From a virus: a stretch of 44,489 nucleotides of DNA. The translations under genes and the position numbers were made by a program. The notes beneath the pieces are model-generated. The model worked only from the letters and a program-made list of their open reading frames with translations. It made no database searches and was not told the DNA's origin. This document shows, piece by piece, positions 5,016-44,419 of this stretch (positions are counted from its first letter, which is position 1; the number at the start of each line of letters is the position of its first letter). Where the stretch lies: IMG/VR virus record IMGVR_UViG_3300029914_000051, positions 1 to 44,489 of that record; one strand, 5' to 3'.

Positions 5016-5532
5016 TTTCCTTGAGGCCATCGATTCCGTTATCTAGCACGTAGACTTTAAAGCCTTGATCGACTCGCGCCTTATGCACAAGTTCTTGCGC
5101 TTCCGAAACAACACCGCCTTTTTCCTTTTTAAGTTCGATAAAGATTATTCGAGCAGGGTGCCACGTAAGCATTAGATCGAGTTCGCCTTTGAGCATTCCC
5201 TTGGCTTTGAAACGAGCTACTAACCCCATAAATTGCTGCATACTCATAAACCGCCGAATATAACCTATTTCACCGTTCATTGACGCGGAAACCGTTACCT
5301 GTGGGCACATTTGATGTAGGTAGTGCACGACAGCGGCCTGTGTGGTGTTTTCCTCGTGCGCGTTCTTTTGTCCTGGAGCTCGTGGTTTGCGCGGCGCTCG
5401 CGGTGTCTTGTCCATGAAGGCTAATGGAGTGGCCGAAGTCTTGTTACCCCAGCCGCTTGGAGCTTGGCTTCTCATTTGTGCCTGTAGCGCGGCGAGTGTG
5501 GGTTTGTTGCGTGTAAACTTCCCTTTAGCCAT
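4960..5532 (-). CDS. VRR-NUC domain nuclease
   Basis: 190 residues. The N-terminal 55 residues are basic and Pro/Ala-rich, probably flexible. The VRR-NUC (PD-(D/E)xK) fold follows: HEENTTQAAVVHYLH at about 59-73, GELDLML with Glu117/Asp119, FIELKKEKGG with Glu133/Lys135, then SEAQ (Gln146) and the C-terminal KVYVLDNGIDGLKEII. Members cut branched DNA and are common next to phage helicases, as here. The start shares one base with the upstream stop (TAATG), so it is coupled to the 107-aa gene. The 3' end may overlap a convergent small gene. Confidence 0.88.
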   Translation of the reverse strand: MAKGKFTRNKPTLAALQAQMRSQAPSGWGNKTSATPLAFMDKTPRAPRKPRAPGQKNAHEENTTQAAVVHYLHQMCPQVTVSASMNGEIGYIRRFMSMQQFMGLVARFKAKGMLKGELDLMLTWHPARIIFIELKKEKGGVVSEAQELVHKARVDQGFKVYVLDNGIDGLKEIISLEAIPCREHHYSTPF

Positions 5533-5855
5533 TAGAACCCCATCCTGTCTGAATTGTCGGCGTTAATGCGCCGTTCGATGATTGCGCGGCCATTAGCTAG
5601 AAGGCGTTTTAATAGCCCCTCTGGTTCGCGTTTTGACCTATTCCAGCACAGGAAACAGAACAGGTGATACAGGTGCTGCTGTTCCCAGAAACTTCCGTCA
5701 AACATGTAATTTGAAGCTCCGTCTAGGTACAGGTCGATTTCCTTCGGGTCGGCCAGCATCAACGATACGCGGTTTGTTTCTGTTTTCATGCGCTGCTCTT
5801 GCCATAATTTTAAAGAACATGGCTGTAAAGCATGAAGTGCTTCGGATGGTTTCAT
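5532..5855 (-). CDS. Hypothetical protein, 107 aa
   Basis: A 107-residue protein with an aromatic centre (SNYMFDGSFWEQQHLYHLFCFLCWNR) and a basic end. The ATG overlaps the upstream stop as ATGA, so translation is coupled to the 335-aa gene. It lies between the helicase block and the VRR-NUC nuclease, which suggests a replication or recombination role without proving one. No family recognised. Confidence 0.7.
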   Translation of the reverse strand: MKPSEALHALQPCSLKLWQEQRMKTETNRVSLMLADPKEIDLYLDGASNYMFDGSFWEQQHLYHLFCFLCWNRSKREPEGLLKRLLANGRAIIERRINADNSDRMGF

Positions 5856-33902: not shown

Positions 33903-36836
33903 ATGGCTGGCCCAAAACCTCAAGATGTTTATCAAGGTTATAACGCAAGCCCATCGGGTATTGCGGATACGGATTCACCTGCTGGTCGTGGGCCGCGTTT
34001 TGAGGTTCAAGCCAATCCGAATGATTTCGGTGCAAATGTAGGACAGGCGTTAGAGCAAGCGGGTAAAACTGGTGAGCAATTAGGAGATGAAGCGAGTGAT
34101 TTAGCTACGCATTTTGCCCAAATGTACGCTGACTCGTCTGCGCGTGACGGCGTAACAAATGCGTCTAAAGAATTATCTGATGCGGAATTGGCTTTTAGAC
34201 AAAACAAAGGCAATAATTCCGTAAACGCTTATAAAACTTTTCAGGATAGCGTTTCTCAAATTCAAGAAAAATACGCCAATTCTATGCCAAATTTGGCGGC
34301 GCAGAATAAATTCAAAGACGATTTTTCGCATGAAGCCAGCAGTGCTATTTTTCGTTCTGGTGCTTATGTTGCAGATCAAGCCGAATCCGCACAACTCACC
34401 TCATTAAAATCTTCTATAGATAATAATGCCAATCAGTTTGCGCTTAATGCAAACAACCCTACTGCGTCTACTTATATTGATAAGATTAGAAATGACACGG
34501 CTGATTTAGCTGACCATCAAGGTATTACTGATCCATCTGCGATTGCTGGTATGTCGGCAAAACATATAGGCACAGCAATATCAGGTGCTATTAACTCAAA
34601 TATTCGTACTAGCCCAGATTTGGCGCAATCTATAGCCAATAAATATCTGAATGGTTCATACCAAGCTGTTGGCGTTGATAAGGACGGCAATCAAGTTGTA
34701 ACGAACGTGCCTTATGTTGATGCGCAACAACGCACTGAAATTACCAATGCTATGCAACAAGAATTTGTGCGTCAGCAAAATCAGACGATACAGGATGCAA
34801 AAGAATATGCGGTAACAGGAGACAATTATAATAAAGCCGCTGTTGTTGGTTCAATGCAACGCGCAGGAAGAAGTCAGGATGATATAGATGCCATGACGCA
34901 TCATCTTGATAATATGCAAACTAGTTTTGGCGCAGAGCAGGCGCGTTATGATTTAAACCAAGCCTATAAGAATGACGAGGCTCTAGCTTACGCTGGGAAA
35001 TCCCCAGTCGGCGTTTATGATCCTGCTACAGTTCAAAAAGCTTTTAGAAAAGATCCAGATAAAGCACAAGACTTTCTAAACCAAGTAAATCAGCTTCATC
35101 AGGTTGCCGGTTTTGTTGGCGGGATGCCCACACGAACGCCTGCTCAAAATCAGGCGGCATTAGATGCGTTTGCCCCTCACGGCATGTCGATTGCCGATTC
35201 CATTCATCAACAAGAATCTGGCGGTAAAGCGAACGCTCCTGCTAACGGAGTTTCTGTAGGTGGATGGCAGATTACTCCCGGAACCTTTGCACAATACGCC
35301 AAACCTGGTGAAGATATAAACAACCCCAAAGATAATGAGGCGGTTGGTCATCGCATTATTGATGATCTATCAAGCAAGTTTAACGGCGATCCAGCAAGAA
35401 TCGCGGTTGGGTATTTTTCTGGTGCTGGAAATGTTGCTCCTGCCGGAAGCCCTACGCCTTGGATAAATAATACATCAGATAAGAACGGTAAAAGCGTTTC
35501 TTCTTATGTTGCTGATGTCACTGGACGCATGAGCGGTTCGCAGAACTTCGGTGAGCAGTCAAATTTGTATGGCAAAATGCAGAAAGCGGCTCAGGACTAT
35601 TATAAGCAACTAGGTGATGATCCCGCTGGCATGATAACTAGCAATGATACTAAATTAAGCAATCAATTCCAAGATGCTGTTCAGGATACCAAGAACCCGC
35701 AGAAGATGGTTAATTACGTTAATGCTGTTGCGGCTCGTCAGGAAGCCCTACAGGTGCCAGAAGTTAATCGTTCTGTTTTGCCAAAAGCTTATGCTGCGGC
35801 AATTCAGAATGATTTAACTGCGAATCCAGAGCAGGCTCCAGACAAGCTTGCGAAGATGGCAAGGAATTACGGAAATACATGGCCCCAAGTTTATAAGTCA
35901 CTCGGCCTGACGTTCCAACAGCAAACTCAGGCACACACGGCAGAAGACCCGATGATGGCGCAGTATGGCGCAATGGATGCTAAACTTGGTTCGGATGATT
36001 TGACGAAGGGTAAAACAGACGAATTTATTATGGGCGGTAAAGAAAATCTTACGGCAATGAAAGATGCCGTGACCAGCAATACTGATTTACAATCTTTTAT
36101 GTTGTCGATGCGTAGATCGGGTGCAAGCCCACAATATCTACAGCAAATACAAGACCAAGCCGAACATATGTCTATGGCGATTAAGTTTTATGACCCAGCA
36201 GCCGGAAGTATTAAAGATGCTACCAATAAGGCTGTTGCTGCAATGACGCATGGTTATGGCTATCTGCCATCAGGAGATCGCGTTCCCTTAAATAGAATTG
36301 ATAGCATATCTACAAACACCCAGTTTTATCAGCAGCACATTGGGGATCTAGTATCTCCGCAACAATATGTGCCGCCAACTTATGCTTCAAGAGAACACTA
36401 TATCCAAGATTTACAAACATCATCTTCTTTTTTAACCGATGAGGCCAATCAAAGATTACTGATGATCGACAATCATGGGCTTCCTGTTCTTGGTTTGGAC
36501 GGTAAGCAAATATCTGTTGGCTTTAATGATGCTGCTATGCGGAAGCCTGTCGTGCGTCCACCAGATTTAACTGTGCAACCCAATCAATACTTGGGACGTG
36601 GTGAAATTCCAGTCAAGGGTTCATTGGCTGATAAAGCGCCTAGCTTCTCCGAAATTCCAGGTATTGCTGAATCGGCAGGGAAGAAAGTTGCTTCTGGTGT
36701 TGAAAATCTTGCTGCAAAAGCGAAAGAACGTGAATCCCAAGGCGGTTTGGCTGCGACACCCAATCAATACTTGGGACGTGGTGAAATTCCAGTCAAGGGT
36801 TCATTGGCTGATATTATTAACGAGGCGATTAAATAA
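33903..36836 (+). CDS. Internal virion protein with lytic transglycosylase domain
   Basis: 977 residues. An SLT lysozyme-like domain lies at about 428-560: GMSIADSIHQQESGGKANAP, with catalytic Glu438 in QESGG, then SVGGWQITPGTFAQY and ARIAVGYFSGAGNV. It should cut peptidoglycan during genome ejection. The first 400 residues are Ala/Asn/Gln-rich helices (GANVGQALEQAGKTGEQLGD). The C-terminus carries two copies of NQYLGRGEIPVKGSLAD (about 895 and 955) from a perfect 56-base repeat. The role matches the T7 gp15/gp16 ejectosome; here the enzyme domain lies mid-protein rather than at the N-terminus as in T7 gp16. Confidence 0.88.
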   Translation: MAGPKPQDVYQGYNASPSGIADTDSPAGRGPRFEVQANPNDFGANVGQALEQAGKTGEQLGDEASDLATHFAQMYADSSARDGVTNASKELSDAELAFRQNKGNNSVNAYKTFQDSVSQIQEKYANSMPNLAAQNKFKDDFSHEASSAIFRSGAYVADQAESAQLTSLKSSIDNNANQFALNANNPTASTYIDKIRNDTADLADHQGITDPSAIAGMSAKHIGTAISGAINSNIRTSPDLAQSIANKYLNGSYQAVGVDKDGNQVVTNVPYVDAQQRTEITNAMQQEFVRQQNQTIQDAKEYAVTGDNYNKAAVVGSMQRAGRSQDDIDAMTHHLDNMQTSFGAEQARYDLNQAYKNDEALAYAGKSPVGVYDPATVQKAFRKDPDKAQDFLNQVNQLHQVAGFVGGMPTRTPAQNQAALDAFAPHGMSIADSIHQQESGGKANAPANGVSVGGWQITPGTFAQYAKPGEDINNPKDNEAVGHRIIDDLSSKFNGDPARIAVGYFSGAGNVAPAGSPTPWINNTSDKNGKSVSSYVADVTGRMSGSQNFGEQSNLYGKMQKAAQDYYKQLGDDPAGMITSNDTKLSNQFQDAVQDTKNPQKMVNYVNAVAARQEALQVPEVNRSVLPKAYAAAIQNDLTANPEQAPDKLAKMARNYGNTWPQVYKSLGLTFQQQTQAHTAEDPMMAQYGAMDAKLGSDDLTKGKTDEFIMGGKENLTAMKDAVTSNTDLQSFMLSMRRSGASPQYLQQIQDQAEHMSMAIKFYDPAAGSIKDATNKAVAAMTHGYGYLPSGDRVPLNRIDSISTNTQFYQQHIGDLVSPQQYVPPTYASREHYIQDLQTSSSFLTDEANQRLLMIDNHGLPVLGLDGKQISVGFNDAAMRKPVVRPPDLTVQPNQYLGRGEIPVKGSLADKAPSFSEIPGIAESAGKKVASGVENLAAKAKERESQGGLAATPNQYLGRGEIPVKGSLADIINEAIK
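36578..36633 (+). repeat. 56-bp perfect direct repeat, copy 1
   Basis: Identical to 36758-36813, offset exactly 180 bases, so both copies are read in the same frame. Encodes NQYLGRGEIPVKGSLAD. Confidence 0.95.
36758..36813 (+). repeat. 56-bp perfect direct repeat, copy 2
   Basis: Second copy, ending 23 bases before the end of the transglycosylase gene. Absence of even silent differences means a recent duplication or ongoing gene conversion. Confidence 0.95.
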
Positions 36837-39800
36837 TGTATATCCCTGATGGTACACCATTTCAGATGCCGCAAGAGAGCGCTGCTTTTGATTTCCAGAA
36901 AGAGTCTCCAACATGGACTGGATTGACTGGGAATAATATAGCCTCAGACTTTACGAATAAAGCTGGATCGTTCGTTGCGGAGAACGTAGATACAGCTATA
37001 GACGCCACATCTAATGCGCTTGGGTTCAATCTTCCGAAGTCTCAGAAAATATCTGCCGAACAAATTAATTCCTCGGCTCCGATTGGCAATGACGGCAAGC
37101 AGGTTCATATTACTGATGAGCCGATGTATGAGAATGTCGCCAATATGATTACTAAGGATAAACAGCGAGAATTAGTTAATGAGGATATGAATGCTCGTTA
37201 TAGTAATACGCATGGATTATTGCCGACATTGGCATCTGGCGCGGCTGCAACGTTAGCCGATCCTGCCAGTATCGCTGCAATGGCATACGGAGGCGCGATT
37301 CTCAGCAGCAGCAAGGTTTTAGCTGGCCTTGGTGCTTTGGGCGTTGATACAGCCACTACAGCAGCCAGAGTGGGCGCGAGGGTAATATCAGGCGCTGTTG
37401 GCGGCGCGGCTTCCATGGTGCCTTTGGCCGGAGCGCAATTGGGCATCAGCGCGTATCAGGGCGGTGACTACGATGTGAAGTCTGCTCTTAGTGATATGGC
37501 GTTCGGGGCTGTCGGAGGCGCATTAATTCATGGTGGGTTCGGAAGCGCGTTGCATGAGAGTGGCGTTCTGAAGCCCGACGAGTTAATGAGGGCGCAGACG
37601 CTCAAGACTGACTTTCAATCACAAGCAGCAGATATTCTTCGCCAACCAGCGCCCGTTAAAGCTGCGGCGATGAACTCGACGATTGCTGATGTTGTTAATG
37701 GTCGTCCGGCTGATCCTTCGGCAGTCATAGGTAAGGATGGGCAACCGCCCAATTTATCGCAAATTGCTGATGACAGGAAGCAACAAAATCAGAACGGCTA
37801 TTCCCCCAATATGACGCCAGAAGAAATGGCGGCGGCAAGAAAAACAATTCTTCCGAATGGCCTAAAGGTTGAGCCTCAGCCCTCGCGTTTGCCGGACGAT
37901 GAAATTAACCGTTATAAAGGAACGGTAAAACAGGAATTGTCGAACGCTGGCATCGAGAATGTTGACGATAGCGTTGTTCAGGAAATAGCAAGAATTAAGG
38001 CTGAGCAGATTAATCCAGAAGGTGTTGCTAAACCGCGTCCTTTGGCAAAAGTAGAGGCTGGTGAGAGAAACCCAGAATCTGTCTGGAAATCAGTTGATCT
38101 GACGCCAAAGCCCGTTGAAGTTGCACCTCGTCCTGTTCCTGTTGCAGAGCCAAGACTACCTTCTGAATTATCCAAATCCTCCCCTCGTTGGGCCGATGGT
38201 AAAGAGGTAGCCTTTAATAGTGACATTGATAAGGCTCTTTATATTGTGGGCGGAAAAGGTAAATCACCAGCGCATGACAAGTTTGTAAGTTTTCTGACTG
38301 ATAAAGCTGGATTAACGAAGCAACAGATTGCACAAGGCGCATTAGATGTTCGTGAGGCCATTAAGCAAAATGCAAAGGCCAAGACAGAAGTAATCAATGT
38401 TCCGAAGGTATTTAATTCTGAAAAACCTCTTGAAATTACCGTTCCGCAAAAACGTACAGTTTCTCCATTTAAAAACCCTAATGTTATTCAACTTGCCGCT
38501 GAAATGGGCGGATTAAAGCCACATGGCGATCTCAAAGCTATGGGCGCAGAAACAGAATTTGTCCCCGGTCGTGGCAGACTTATTCGTGACACCGGGCGCA
38601 GTTTGCATGAATTAGGTCTTGAGTTGGCTGGACGAGAATATACCGGATTCGATGCACATAACCCTCCGTCAGATAACCAAGTTCTTGAGTTGATTCGTAG
38701 GGGTCTAAACGAGGATCATGTTTATTCAGAGAAAAACAGATCATCAATGGAAGCTAGAGACGAAAAGGCTGTATTGAGTGAATACCATGAAGATTTAGAG
38801 CGTCATGCTGGAGAAATGGGCATTGATACTACTGGGATGAAACCAGAAGAAATTCATGCTGAGCTTGAGAAACAGCTTAGAGAGGCGGCAGAAGAGCATA
38901 ATGCTCTTGATTTGCTAGATAAAGAAGATCCATCATTACAACGAGATTACTATCCAGATATGGAGGATATTCATGCCAATGAAACCGTCCCGACTAGCGC
39001 ACATACAGCAGATGAACCAGAAATCAGCGCAGGCGATGAGCGATCCGAATTTGAAGCCGGAAACGAGGGAGGCATTCAAGGCTCTGAACAAGTCAACTCA
39101 GAGCTTGCTGGACGCGGAGCCGAAGGTGCAAGAGCCGACGCAGGACGAACAGGCACAGATGATGGGCCAACAGCAAGCGGCGCAAGCGGTGAAGTAGTTA
39201 CAAAAGGCGATTTATATAAATTACCCCGTGAATCTCTGGAACAGATGCGTGATGAAACGCATTTATCTGACCATGAGAAACTTATAAAAGCCCTTGGAAG
39301 CGATGAAGAAGCCAAAAGGTTTAATCGCCTTGTCCGGCAGTCCGAAAGCATGGATCATGCCCGTGCCGACAAAGCCAGCAAGGAACTTGGTGAGATAGAG
39401 GATAAATTAACGCCAGAACAACAGAAGCTTATTTATGGCATTGGTGAAACTGGCGCAACAAAAGAAGATTTGGACGAGTTAATAAAAGCTCACAGTGACA
39501 TCACTTTCACGCCGCATGATGATATTAAAGACATTGGATATATCGGAACCCTTGGAATAAGGAAGATGCTGCCAGAGGAAATTCTATCTGTCAAAGAAGG
39601 TAAGGCTTCTATTGCGGCTCAGGCCGCACTTATAAGGTTCAAGGGTGCGTTGGATGAATTGAGAGACAGGGGATTAACCATAGAGGAATCCTTTAAGGCA
39701 ATGGCGCAGGGGATGTCTGAAAAGTCAGGCATGAGCATAGGCGACGCAACTGATTTTGTCCGTGATTTTTCTAATGCGGTAAAAGAAAGATCAGAAGAAA

Positions 39801-40153
39801 AACCCACAACCTTCGAGCCAGCAAAGAATGTCGCAGGAGGCGGAGAGCAAGGTGTCCTAAGCGGCATGGAGAAATCCGCTAAACAAGCCATGCAAGCGCG
39901 TGGCGACAAGATTAAGCCAAATGTTGAACAAAAACCTGCCGATGAAGGATTGTTTAAGAGTGCAATCGGCGGCGGCGATGAATTGGATTTACGCATTGCC
40001 GATGCCGAGAGAACAATCAATGCTTCTGGAATGACGGTCGAAGAACGAGCTGATATTCAGCAAGCCTATAAAGAAGCTGCGGATGCAGATAAAGTTTATT
40101 CCGATAAAATGAAGGAACTTGGGCAATGCCTAGGTGAAAATGGGGTTGGGTAA
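36836..40153 (+). CDS. Large internal virion (ejection) protein, 1105 aa
   Basis: Starts on TAATG with the preceding stop. A long Ala/Gly-rich hydrophobic region at about 127-242 (ATLADPASIAAMAYGGAILS; GAVGGAASMVPLAGAQLG) suits a trans-envelope channel. It is followed by Pro-rich linkers (PLAKVEAGERNPE; PVEVAPRPVPVAEPRLP) and a domain around 545-640 (MGAETEFVPGRGRLIRDTGR ... LVLELIRRGL-like helices). Residues about 713-788 are low-complexity acidic/Gly linker, and there another gene is nested out of frame (38973-39197). The C-terminal helical part ends at TAATG with the next gene. Function inferred from position and shape. Confidence 0.82.
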   Translation: MYIPDGTPFQMPQESAAFDFQKESPTWTGLTGNNIASDFTNKAGSFVAENVDTAIDATSNALGFNLPKSQKISAEQINSSAPIGNDGKQVHITDEPMYENVANMITKDKQRELVNEDMNARYSNTHGLLPTLASGAAATLADPASIAAMAYGGAILSSSKVLAGLGALGVDTATTAARVGARVISGAVGGAASMVPLAGAQLGISAYQGGDYDVKSALSDMAFGAVGGALIHGGFGSALHESGVLKPDELMRAQTLKTDFQSQAADILRQPAPVKAAAMNSTIADVVNGRPADPSAVIGKDGQPPNLSQIADDRKQQNQNGYSPNMTPEEMAAARKTILPNGLKVEPQPSRLPDDEINRYKGTVKQELSNAGIENVDDSVVQEIARIKAEQINPEGVAKPRPLAKVEAGERNPESVWKSVDLTPKPVEVAPRPVPVAEPRLPSELSKSSPRWADGKEVAFNSDIDKALYIVGGKGKSPAHDKFVSFLTDKAGLTKQQIAQGALDVREAIKQNAKAKTEVINVPKVFNSEKPLEITVPQKRTVSPFKNPNVIQLAAEMGGLKPHGDLKAMGAETEFVPGRGRLIRDTGRSLHELGLELAGREYTGFDAHNPPSDNQVLELIRRGLNEDHVYSEKNRSSMEARDEKAVLSEYHEDLERHAGEMGIDTTGMKPEEIHAELEKQLREAAEEHNALDLLDKEDPSLQRDYYPDMEDIHANETVPTSAHTADEPEISAGDERSEFEAGNEGGIQGSEQVNSELAGRGAEGARADAGRTGTDDGPTASGASGEVVTKGDLYKLPRESLEQMRDETHLSDHEKLIKALGSDEEAKRFNRLVRQSESMDHARADKASKELGEIEDKLTPEQQKLIYGIGETGATKEDLDELIKAHSDITFTPHDDIKDIGYIGTLGIRKMLPEEILSVKEGKASIAAQAALIRFKGALDELRDRGLTIEESFKAMAQGMSEKSGMSIGDATDFVRDFSNAVKERSEEKPTTFEPAKNVAGGGEQGVLSGMEKSAKQAMQARGDKIKPNVEQKPADEGLFKSAIGGGDELDLRIADAERTINASGMTVEERADIQQAYKEAADADKVYSDKMKELGQCLGENGVG
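38973..39197 (+). CDS. Nested small protein inside the 1105-aa gene
   Basis: 74 codons in the +1 frame relative to the host gene. GGAGG lies exactly six bases before the ATG, one of the best ribosome sites in the window. The product is helix-rich and looks like a folded protein: MPMKPSRLAHIQQMNQKSAQ, AMSDPNLKPETREAFKALNK, STQSLLDAEPKVQEPTQDEQ, then a Gln/Ala-rich end. In contrast, the host frame here is a Glu/Gly/Ala linker (ISAGDERSEFEAGNEGG; GRGAEGARADAGRTGTDDG), as expected if it was shaped by the nested gene. Function unknown; perhaps an assembly partner of the host protein. Confidence 0.62.
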   Translation: MPMKPSRLAHIQQMNQKSAQAMSDPNLKPETREAFKALNKSTQSLLDAEPKVQEPTQDEQAQMMGQQQAAQAVK

Positions 40154-42591
40154 TGGCGACTTGCAGCATGGAGCGTGGTGAGTTTCAAAAGGCTATGCGT
40201 GACGCGCAGGAAGCCCGTGAGAAGAAGATGGACGCGCTGGATTCTGCTGTTAAGCGCGACAGGATTATGACAAAGATTTTTGGCAATGGGGGCATAAAGA
40301 ATGCGGCTGAAACGCTCCACGCATTGTTACGCGGATCGTTCAAGAATGTTAATGAGGCTGCGAACAGCATTCAGAGCAAATGGATTTCAAAACGCGGTCA
40401 ATACAGCACGTTATTTGGTGAGGAATTACGAAAGGCAAATTTGACTAAGGCTTTTAATTCTGGCTTGATGGACAAAGACACATATACTGCAATGTATAAA
40501 TTGCAGAACGGTGAGAAGATAGGAAATTCCCCCGTTTCTACATTGGCAAAGTTGATTGTCCAGTTCACCGATGGTGCGCGTGATGATGTAAATGCCGTTG
40601 GCGGAAGAATTAAGGACGCCCGTGATTATGCAATCGCAACAGATCACAGTTCTGAAAAGTTACGCGCTGCTGCGGGTTCTGGGAAGACATTGGATGAAGC
40701 ATTTAATGCTTGGTATGGCGATGTAAAACAATGGATGTCGCCCAAAACATTCAGGGGCGATATGCCAAAAGCAGGTGAATCTGCCGCCGATATGCAAATG
40801 CGCTTGATGCGCGATATGTATGACAGCCTCTACACGGGCGTTCATGAAAAGGTTGGTTCTACCGAGAGCGGGTTCGTTCCCAAGGATTTTGAGAATACAA
40901 AGAACGTGTCCAATCAAGTTTCCGCGCATCGTGCGATAGTCTGGAAAGACGGCGAATCTGCTTATTCCTATTCCCAGAAATACGGCAAAAGCCCCAATCT
41001 GGCTACAACCGTTGCAAATATCTTTGATCGCATGGCACGGGCTGGCGCATTGATGGAGCAATTCGGCAACAACCCAATGGCTAATCTTAACATGGTTATT
41101 CGTCGCGTTGAGGAAACGTATAAGAGCGAAGGGGATGCCGTAAGGAGTTTTAGAGATCAGGCGAACAACATTCGCAACGAGATGGCATTACTCGACGGAA
41201 CTGCCAACATCCCGTACAACATGGGATTCGTTGCAAAAGCTGGCCCCGCGCTTCGTGCGTTTGAGGGTACTACGAAATTAGGCGGTGTTATGTGGACGCA
41301 TTTCTTCTCTGGTGTGTATGCGATTCCCAATATGGCTGCTCATAACGGCATTAATAGGTTAAGCGCGTTTGGGATGATGGCTAAGAGTATATTCGAAGGC
41401 AAGCCACAGGGGGAATGGGCGCGGATTGCTGCTGAAAATGGTGCGTATGATGACGGCATGTTCCGGCATCAATCGAATGTATTTGGTGAAAGCACGGTGC
41501 CGGGAGCGGTTAGCGCATTTGCCAACAAATTCATGGATGCAACTGGAATCCATTTTCTATTTGATCGCTGGAAAGCTGGCATCAAGAGTATGATTTCAAA
41601 TAATCTCGCTGAGTCGATTAGGACTAACTTTGATGCTCTGGAACCGCACATTAAAAATCAGCTATCTCGCTACGGCATTAATGCGGATGCGTGGGGGTTG
41701 ATACAAAAAACAGAGGGCAACCTTCGTGAGTACAACGGCAATAAATACCTGACGCCAACTTCGATTATGGAGGGTTTGGGCGATCATCCTGATGCGAGAA
41801 ATATATCCGATAAAATCCTGTCCTATTATTCCGATTCTGCCCGTGAAGGGGTTGTGACATCTGGCGTTAAAGAACAAGCGTATATGTACGGCAATTTGAG
41901 AAAAGGAACATTGCCTAGCGAATTGGTAAAATCTTTGATGCAGTTCAAAGCGTGGCCTCTTGCTGCTTATAACCAGATACTTGAACGAAATGTCTTTCAA
42001 AGCCTATCCAAAAAAGAAGTCGTTTATAATATGGGGATGCTTGTCGCTCTCGGCGTTCCCGCTGGATATATGAGAATGGCTGTGAACGCCAAATTAGCAG
42101 GTCGTCCGTTGCCTGATCCGATGAACATAAAGACGGCACTAGAGGCAACTGCCAATAGTGGGTTCCTCGGTATTGCTGGTGACGAGTTGTTTGGGCAAAT
42201 TCAGCGTATGGGCAAGCAGGGTGTTATTGCCGCTGCTGGCCCCGTTGCCGGAGACTTGAACGACATAGCCTCGCTATACGGTAAAGCGATGGGCGATGTT
42301 GAGGGCGAGAAGAATAAACTGTGGCCTGATTTGGCGCACATGGCGGTTAATCACGTTCCTTTCGCCAATCTATTTTACGTCAAGGGTGCGTATGATTATC
42401 TGATTGCGTATCACTTGTTGGAGGCTGCTGATCCGGGTTACTTCGAAAGAGCAAATCAAAGATTGAGACAAGAAGGCAATAATACGATGATTGGATATAG
42501 TCCTGGTGCTGGCGTTCCGTGGGGGGTTCCTGGTGTTTATCTTGCCAAGGGTGGCGCATCTAGCGGATTGCTGGGCAACAACAAGCTTTAA
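40153..42591 (+). CDS. Large internal virion (ejection) protein, 812 aa
   Basis: Coupled by TAATG to the 1105-aa gene. Largely helical: ERGEFQKAMRDAQEAREKKM at the start, then AAETLHALLRGSFKNVNEAA, KRGQYSTLFGEELRKANLTK. Hydrophobic segments occur near 380-400 (LGGVMWTHFFSGVYAIPNMA) and 630-650 (VVYNMGMLVALGVPAGYMRM). The C-terminus (YLIAYHLLEAADPGYFERAN ... GVPWGVPGVYLAKGG) is typical of the last ejection protein in such clusters. It completes a gp14/gp15/gp16-like core set. No enzymatic motif seen. Confidence 0.8.
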   Translation: MATCSMERGEFQKAMRDAQEAREKKMDALDSAVKRDRIMTKIFGNGGIKNAAETLHALLRGSFKNVNEAANSIQSKWISKRGQYSTLFGEELRKANLTKAFNSGLMDKDTYTAMYKLQNGEKIGNSPVSTLAKLIVQFTDGARDDVNAVGGRIKDARDYAIATDHSSEKLRAAAGSGKTLDEAFNAWYGDVKQWMSPKTFRGDMPKAGESAADMQMRLMRDMYDSLYTGVHEKVGSTESGFVPKDFENTKNVSNQVSAHRAIVWKDGESAYSYSQKYGKSPNLATTVANIFDRMARAGALMEQFGNNPMANLNMVIRRVEETYKSEGDAVRSFRDQANNIRNEMALLDGTANIPYNMGFVAKAGPALRAFEGTTKLGGVMWTHFFSGVYAIPNMAAHNGINRLSAFGMMAKSIFEGKPQGEWARIAAENGAYDDGMFRHQSNVFGESTVPGAVSAFANKFMDATGIHFLFDRWKAGIKSMISNNLAESIRTNFDALEPHIKNQLSRYGINADAWGLIQKTEGNLREYNGNKYLTPTSIMEGLGDHPDARNISDKILSYYSDSAREGVVTSGVKEQAYMYGNLRKGTLPSELVKSLMQFKAWPLAAYNQILERNVFQSLSKKEVVYNMGMLVALGVPAGYMRMAVNAKLAGRPLPDPMNIKTALEATANSGFLGIAGDELFGQIQRMGKQGVIAAAGPVAGDLNDIASLYGKAMGDVEGEKNKLWPDLAHMAVNHVPFANLFYVKGAYDYLIAYHLLEAADPGYFERANQRLRQEGNNTMIGYSPGAGVPWGVPGVYLAKGGASSGLLGNNKL

Positions 42592-42796: not shown

Positions 42797-44419
42797 TTGA
42801 CAATCAGCACAACCGCTTCATCCACCGCCGTTGTTTTGATAGCGGCTCAAACTGTCGTTCCATTTTCATTTATCGCCGATGCTGCATCTGACATTACTGT
42901 TCAGACCACAAATACAAGCACTGGCGCATCCACCACTCTAACAGCATCGCAATATACAGTAACGCTTAATTCAGCCACGACTGGTCAGCTTTGGGGTGTG
43001 GGGGGATATGTAACTTTAAATAGTGCCCCTGGCGTTGGTTATACTTGTACGATTACGCGCACGCTTCCTTTACAGCAACTTATCAGCATCCAGAATCAAG
43101 GCGATTTTGCGCCACAAGTTACAGAACAAGCCCTTGATACTCTTTGCATGGAAATCCAGCAAGTATCCGCTCGCGGTGGCTCCTACCGTGGCGTGTGGGC
43201 TACCAACGTCATTTACAATTTTGGCGACATCGTTCAGGACGGCGTGAACGGCGCATATACGAACAACCTGTATGTCTGCGCTATTGCAAATACGTCTGGA
43301 ACATGGGCAACGGATTTAGCGTCCGGGGATTGGTCGCTTGCTCTTAATATTCAAACTATCAACGCTTCTGGAACATATTTGCCATTGGCGGGTGGAACGA
43401 TTAGCGGGAATTTGGCGGTAACGGGAACAACGACTACAGCCGCCATTAACGCATCTGGGACTATTACTGGCAACGTGACGGGCAACGTGACGGGCAACGT
43501 GACGGGCAACGTGACGGGCAACGTGACGGGCAACGTGACGGGCAACGTGACGGGTGGAACAGTCCAGACCACATCCGTCAATGGCGGTCAACTCGCCGGT
43601 CTTCGCAATCGTACGATAAATGGTGATTTTCGTATCGATCAAAGAAATTCAGGCGCGAGCCAGACGATTACCGCTGGAACTTCTGGGACATCAAACGCAT
43701 ATACTGTTGACCGATTTTATGCCGCTTGTACGGGCGCTAATGTCACGGGGCAGCGCGTTGCGGGGTCGGCTCCCAACCAGTACGTTTATAAATTTACGGG
43801 CGCGGCCTCGGTCACGGGAATTGCGTTCGGACAAAGATATGAATCGACGAATGTCTATGACCTAGCTTCAACGACAGCGACATTCTCCGTCCAATTGGCA
43901 AACAGTTTGCTGACAACAGTAACATGGACGGCTTATTATCCTGGTTCGTCTGACACATGGACATCGAGAACGTCTATTGCAACAGGAACTTTCACCGTTT
44001 CGTCAACTGCCGCAATATATTCGGCACAAATTGCCTTGGGTGCAAACATAACGGCTGGGCTTGAGATTGAACTTTCAGTGGGCTCGCAAACTTCCGGCAC
44101 ATGGACAATCGGCGAATGGCAACTCGAAAACGGGACACAGGCGACGCCATTTGAACGAAGATCGGATGGGTTAGAGCTGGTATTATGCCAAAGGTATTTT
44201 GAACTTTTGAATAATAATCTCAATGGTACTTTTGCGGCATCGGGTTCTTCACGAGTCATATGGTCCTTCAAAACTTCCAAACGTGTGACACCTACGATGT
44301 CATATTCTGGTATTAATGGAAGTCAATCTGCGCTCAGCACTGATTCGGCAGTTGTGGGCATAACGTCCACTGCTGAAGCGGTGATCGGTACAGGTTCAAC
44401 AGCAAGTGCGGAGCTATAA
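42797..44419 (+). CDS. Tail fibre protein with T7-type N-terminal domain
   Basis: 540 residues, start TTG with GGGAGA six bases upstream. Residues 1-135 match the virion-attachment domain of T7 gp17-type fibres (YTVTLNSATTGQLWGVGGYV; VTEQALDTLCMEIQQ). A carbohydrate-module-like stretch follows (YRGVWATNVIYNFGDIVQDG; NNLYVCAIANTSGTWA), then PLAGGTISGNLAVTGTT and seven GNVT tandem units (225-252). A C-terminal beta-sandwich receptor domain begins with LRNRTINGDFRIDQRNSGAS and includes WTIGEWQLENGTQATPFERR and ELVLCQRYFELL, a signature found in many phage tail proteins. It should determine host recognition. Confidence 0.87.
   Translation: MTISTTASSTAVVLIAAQTVVPFSFIADAASDITVQTTNTSTGASTTLTASQYTVTLNSATTGQLWGVGGYVTLNSAPGVGYTCTITRTLPLQQLISIQNQGDFAPQVTEQALDTLCMEIQQVSARGGSYRGVWATNVIYNFGDIVQDGVNGAYTNNLYVCAIANTSGTWATDLASGDWSLALNIQTINASGTYLPLAGGTISGNLAVTGTTTTAAINASGTITGNVTGNVTGNVTGNVTGNVTGNVTGNVTGGTVQTTSVNGGQLAGLRNRTINGDFRIDQRNSGASQTITAGTSGTSNAYTVDRFYAACTGANVTGQRVAGSAPNQYVYKFTGAASVTGIAFGQRYESTNVYDLASTTATFSVQLANSLLTTVTWTAYYPGSSDTWTSRTSIATGTFTVSSTAAIYSAQIALGANITAGLEIELSVGSQTSGTWTIGEWQLENGTQATPFERRSDGLELVLCQRYFELLNNNLNGTFAASGSSRVIWSFKTSKRVTPTMSYSGINGSQSALSTDSAVVGITSTAEAVIGTGSTASAEL
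43469..43552 (+). repeat. Seven perfect 12-bp tandem repeats in the fibre gene
   Basis: GGCAACGTGACG repeated seven times without a mismatch, encoding (GNVT)7 in frame. Such repeats change copy number by slippage in 4-residue steps without breaking the frame, so fibre shaft length may vary between relatives. Confidence 0.97.

Follow-up and report, generated by a model that had tools for sequence, protein, structure and literature searches.

We describe here a candidate gene of 74 codons that lies wholly inside, and in the +1 frame of, the gene for a large internal virion protein in a 44,489-nucleotide stretch of viral DNA (positions 1 to 44,489 of IMG/VR record IMGVR_UViG_3300029914_000051, referred to here as the window). 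From comparative sequence analysis, we put the probability that this is a real, selected, and separately translated gene at roughly 90%, a figure that excludes its function. The nested frame shows purifying selection and the host frame suppressed synonymous change in the same stretch, and the nested gene has its own start codon and ribosome-binding site, both of which are kept in two relatives, L007 and L107.

Table 1. Positions of the nested gene, its host gene, and the neighboring genes in the window
Feature	Position	Strand	Remarks
Nested gene, 74 aa	38973..39197	+	frame +1 relative to the host ORF; putative product MPMKPSRLAHIQQMNQKSAQAMSDPNLKPETREAFKALNKSTQSLLDAEPKVQEPTQDEQAQMMGQQQAAQAVK
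GGAGG ribosome-binding site of the nested gene	38962..38966	+	doubles as host codons for Met-Glu-Asp
Nested-gene core, residues 1-62	38973..39158	+	ungapped against L007; carries the substitution signature
Host-frame linker codons under the nested gene	38972..39196	+	Glu/Gly/Ala/Ser-rich
Host gene, 1105 aa, internal virion (ejection-type) protein	36836..40153	+	assigned from synteny; conserved N-terminal domain and C-terminal segment, linker between
Upstream neighbor, 977-aa virion protein with SLT transglycosylase domain	33903..36836	+	PF01464, E 1.5e-10
Downstream neighbor, 812-aa virion structural protein	40153..42591	+	phrog_684; start codon overlaps the host stop codon

The nested ORF consists of the ATG at 38973, 73 further codons, and a TAG at 39195–39197, with a second in-frame ATG at 38979 (Table 1). 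The 6 nt between the GGAGG and the ATG resemble the spacing of other Shine–Dalgarno sites in the window. A preliminary description of this DNA had reported a 74-codon ORF preceded at six bases by GGAGG and nested out of frame in a Glu/Gly/Ala linker of the host protein; the sequence bears this out exactly, and the ORF is complete and inside the host gene in the +1 frame. The host frame across the overlap reads NETVPTSAHTADEPEISAGDERSEFEAGNEGGIQGSEQVNSELAGRGAEGARADAGRTGTDDGPTASGASGEV, a linker rich in Glu, Gly, Ala, and Ser.

The host gene is located between genes for an SLT-domain protein and a gp16-like protein and has homology to other members of its type; its N-terminal domain is recognizable in other such phages (phrog_3003), and the same gene order surrounds it in Pelagibacter phage Skadi-4 and in Pseudomonas phages Flu_PA14_4 and vB_Pae_HB2107-3I. 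From the synteny with a T7-like block and the annotation of equivalent genes elsewhere, we infer on sound grounds that the host encodes an internal virion or ejection protein; the earlier label "ejection protein" fits both lines of evidence, as an attribution rather than a demonstration. Several other features of this region were observed along the way. Approximately 200 host residues directly after the nested gene (39199–39840) are missing from L007 and L107 and resemble a domain that was inserted where the linker ends, in the window lineage. At the C terminus of the 977-aa SLT-domain protein (36530–36833), PNQYLGRGEIPVKGSLAD occurs twice, ≈60 residues apart, and a similar pair is found in L008, suggesting a functional C-terminal repeat; L008 itself, related at 76% over the N-terminal part, stops short of the linker and is thus unusable for the overlap. 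A tail-fibre-like protein (42797–44419) contains tandem NVTG repeats at 43400–43600. The near-identical copies L004–L006 differ from the window at 13 to 22 sites in the host gene, none of those listed inside the overlap, and tight clusters of SNPs flank the overlap at 38650–38810 (L004 and L006) and at 39334–39490 (L005), a pattern suggestive of recombination patches.

The close-range codon-position test draws on one lineage pair, the window and L007 (IMGVR_UViG_3300029953_000081), whose host gene is about 53 to 60% identical to that of the window. L007 has a nested ORF at the same place, with a product of 80 aa that is 66% identical to that of the window and shares the identical segments ATATGGAGGA and ATGCCAATG, whereas host-frame identity in the overlap is 48%. 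Host codon positions 1/2/3 have 27/11/11 changes over 63 codons of the overlap, compared with 27/24/39 before it (81 codons) and 18/8/52 after it (114 codons), and this distribution differs from that of the flanks taken together (45/32/91; χ2 p = 1.6e-4); host third-position changes are depleted relative to the flanks (Fisher p = 2.8e-5) and to the rest of the gene (p = 1.5e-9). When the 62-codon core is read in the nested register, the counts become 10/10/26. Nei–Gojobori pN/pS in the overlap is 0.25 for the nested frame and 1.49 for the host frame, the former like the 0.23 of the host N-terminal domain. The drop in host-frame synonymous change over 38973–39197 that the preliminary description would expect of overprinting is found, with pS of 0.185 vs 0.585 to 0.757 elsewhere in the host gene. 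In 200,000 bootstrap trials that drew codons from the remainder of the host gene, the overlap pattern was never reached, and the overlap is the most extreme of 1886 intervals over all genes shared with L007 (difference of −15; best elsewhere, −5). Judged by these alignments, the nested gene is protected by evolution more than the host stretch that it overlaps. The host protein is nevertheless kept intact across the linker: the host frame is open in all three phages, its downstream C-terminal segment is under strong constraint (pN/pS 0.17), and none of the nested-synonymous third-position changes seen creates a host-frame stop, which 9 to 13% of such changes would do. Among the signals whose conservation had been proposed as diagnostic, the GGAGG, the ATG, and the open frame are kept in L007, whereas the position of the stop is not fixed; the last dozen residues of the nested product vary, with lengths of 74 (window), 80 (L007), and 67 aa (L107). 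We looked within the clade for a phage in which the linker is present and the nested frame absent and found none.

The third lineage, L107 (IMGVR_UViG_3300047498_000007), is distant, with a downstream protein that is 45% identical. Its +1 ORF, whose ATG follows a GAGGAG at a distance of 7 nt, encodes 67 aa and occupies the same place and frame in the host gene, between the same two conserved host anchors, a GIDTxG motif and the C-terminal segment. Alignment of the nested products yields shuffle p values of 0.0004 against L007 and 0.10 against the window copy, with 22% identity in the nested frame and an hhalign E of 0.027. Host third positions are changed at 23 of 65 sites vs 479 of 712 (Fisher p = 6e-7) in an alignment that was made in the nested frame. 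In a nucleotide alignment made blind to frame, 173 of 190 columns fall into the nested register, with the fewest changes at nested position 2, which corresponds to host position 3 (19/58 vs 32/57 and 30/58). We take these data to indicate that the L107 ORF is homologous to the nested gene of the window and L007 and has been independently retained. The two-frame use, or overprinting, first proposed from the window by itself is thus supported by the nested pN/pS of 0.25, the drop in host pS, and retention in both L007 and L107.

In the mechanism that we propose, the mRNA for the internal virion protein would be read twice over 38973–39197, late in infection. Ribosomes making the 1105-aa protein would cross the overlap as a flexible linker, while others would initiate at the nested ATG, just downstream of the internal GGAGG, to produce a 74-aa protein that is soluble and Q-rich. 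We infer internal initiation from these start signals and late timing from the place of the gene in its operon. The putative product is hydrophilic (GRAVY −1.0; best 19-aa hydropathy −0.31) and has no Cys, transmembrane (TM) segment, lipobox, signal peptide, or hydrophobic N terminus. AlphaFold predicts helices at residues 7–21, 29–47, and 57–69 with a mean pLDDT of 74 and pTM of 0.45, such that the helical part of the earlier claim of a folded helical product is upheld and the fold itself is only moderately supported; the protein is probably soluble and helical, with three helices. No homologues were found in Pfam, PHROGs, INPHARED phages, or the scanned genome contigs, and none of the fold-search matches, all of them generic and helical, fell below E 0.001; close relatives were likewise absent from INPHARED, the genome contigs, and a scan of 398 genomes of the family that had no positive control. 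One match in L011 (DPNLKPETRE, 37% identity) belongs to the main reading frame of another virion protein and is treated as chance; it weakens to E 0.014 once L107 joins the profile.

As to function, the product might be a small factor that helps to build or fill the virion inner body, for instance by partnering the large ejection proteins during assembly, an assignment that we offer tentatively and at somewhat less than even odds. We favor such a role over an anti-host one because the gene is in a late structural operon, its neighbors belong to the inner body, and the product appears soluble. A rather less likely possibility is that a real gene encodes a product that acts on the host cell, in anti-defence, takeover, or lysis control, and has nothing to do with the virion. 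Small size, solubility, and the lack of known relatives would all suit such a protein, and de novo overprinted genes of viruses often encode accessory anti-defence proteins, at least in the eukaryotic viruses reviewed (PMC8227390). The location of the gene inside one virion gene and beside two others in the late structural operon argues against it, and a product with neither TM segment nor lipobox is neither a holin nor a spanin, identities that we rejected on these grounds.

The relative age of the two frames can be judged from codon usage, a criterion reviewed previously (PMC8227390). Within the overlap, the host frame uses codons much as the genome does (−0.03, 0.08, and 0.13 bits per codon in the three phages), whereas nested-frame usage is like that of an arbitrary +1 frame (−0.25, −0.25, and −0.62 bits per codon), which by this criterion suggests an older host frame and a nested gene that arose later, in the linker. 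Nested third positions, which are host first positions, are G/C-rich (0.73, 0.78, and 0.66) and favor host codons for Gly, Ala, Glu, and Asp; the coupling of the frames may therefore be a source of the Glu/Gly/Ala character of the linker. A linker that seems disordered in a phage virion protein can thus reflect a second gene in another frame. The reverse history, in which a once separate small gene was engulfed when the host gene was later extended across it, is improbable. Engulfment of this kind has been discussed for embedded spanins (PMC6139136), and the nested frame is today the more constrained of the two, but the codon usage of both frames speaks against it in all three phages and no free-standing homologue was found.

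A selected +1 reading might also be reached without a start codon of its own, by a programmed frameshift in which host ribosomes slip to +1 near 38960 and terminate at 39197 to give a truncated virion protein that ends in an alternative tail. The +1 frame is indeed open upstream of the ATG for 18 codons in the window and for 56 in L007, and the constraint upstream of the ATG is not sharply separable from that of the overlap in 15-codon blocks. In L107, however, the +1 frame is closed by a TAG two codons before the ATG, so the frame is not open upstream in all three phages and slippage would be confined to AAC-ATG; a frameshift would have hardly any space there, which favors internal initiation. 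Since a good Shine–Dalgarno site and the ATG are kept in all three phages, and an unsystematic look revealed no slippery site, we regard a frameshift as very improbable.

Is the ORF itself a chance product of a linker that rarely makes +1 stops, with a GGAGG that merely spells Met-Glu-Asp? An equally long +1 ATG ORF (at least 74 codons) arises in 71% of 2000 synonymous-codon shuffles that keep the host amino acids, and 26% give such an ORF plus a Shine–Dalgarno match; a long +1 ORF is unremarkable here because a Glu/Gly/Ala linker makes few +1 stops. We therefore reject ORF length and the Shine–Dalgarno site as stand-alone evidence. In addition, no homologous nested ORF was found in about 100 host genes of wider relatives, which fits a chance ORF. 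The composition of the ORF and above all its conservation nonetheless exceed chance. When shuffled ORFs of at least 60 codons with a preceding ribosome site are counted, 0 of 500 are as protein-like as the real ORF, in the window and in each of three relatives; a genome-wide scan with this composition score returned as top entries mostly gene ends that overlap neighboring genes. A chance ORF is contradicted by the nested pN/pS, by a substitution pattern reversed only in the overlap, by a product better conserved than the host frame there, and by independent retention in L107, which together make it scarcely credible. Least probable of all is a constrained DNA or RNA structure or signal in place of a protein: low host third-position change by itself fits any second constraint, but here the constraint has a period of three in the nested register (10/10/26), no Rfam match was obtained, and start-region folds have z values of −0.6, 2.2, and −1.4 in the three phages.

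Among 102 related host genes, the best combinations of protein-like score and ribosome site belong to L095, the window, and L007, with L107 also high; a higher-scoring entry, L130, is a real gene caught by a wrong boundary and was rejected. L095 (IMGVR_UViG_3300033076_000428; downstream protein 25% identical) encodes a 1737-aa protein related to the host protein, and the C-terminal linker of that protein is overlapped by an 86-aa +1 ORF with GGAG (positions 5301–5561). This ORF begins 143 codons before the end of the host gene, none of 500 shuffles is as protein-like, and its product is predicted to form helices with a mean pLDDT of 81 from a single sequence; it has no similarity to a profile of the window nested family. 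Two other ORFs were observed in this survey: a mid-gene GTG ORF with AGGAGG and neutral composition in L018, and a 71-aa +1 ORF with a weak Shine–Dalgarno site and protein-like composition in L027 (3686–3901), inside a 1552-codon frame upstream of a gp16-like gene. If the L095 ORF is real, then the linker has been overprinted more than once. One could speculate, and we consider it doubtful, that the C-terminal linker of internal-virion-protein genes is a recurrent site of overprinting by unrelated +1 genes in podovirus-like phages (window/L007/L107 vs L095), with its low complexity partly a by-product of hidden genes and the nested proteins an unrecognized class of small morphogenesis proteins.

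Judged by its selection signature, the nested gene is a clear example of a gene placed out of frame within a structural gene in a tailed dsDNA phage. Genes of this class tend to be discarded by standard gene callers, and uncatalogued small proteins may be encoded around the phage ejection apparatus. Overprinted genes as such are a known kind, and only the location in an internal virion protein gene appears to be new; we found no description of a gene so placed in the open-access literature, which is weak evidence of novelty. The gene order around the host gene is that of the T7-like internal virion block (gp14-gp15-gp16), as it is in Skadi-4, Flu_PA14_4, and vB_Pae_HB2107-3I, which differ in that no nested +1 gene of this kind was found in them. 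In phage phiX174, B within A and E within D are out-of-frame overprinted genes translated by internal initiation. The discovery of that overlap is cited in PMC8227390. The nested gene resembles these pairs as an out-of-frame gene inside another phage gene and putatively translated by internal initiation, but it belongs to a tailed phage with dsDNA and a genome of some 44 kb or more, which is under less pressure for space. Rz1 is embedded in the +1 frame of Rz, and embedded o-spanin genes of this type are usually missed by gene callers (PMC6139136). Relative to Rz/Rz1, the host here is a large internal virion protein rather than an i-spanin, and the nested product, with no signal peptide, lipobox Cys, or TM segment, does not have the makings of an o-spanin. 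In its architecture, the nested gene is nonetheless like Rz/Rz1 of lambda and 18.5/18.7 of T7: a small gene wholly inside a larger one, in the +1 frame, with its own start and with both frames in use.
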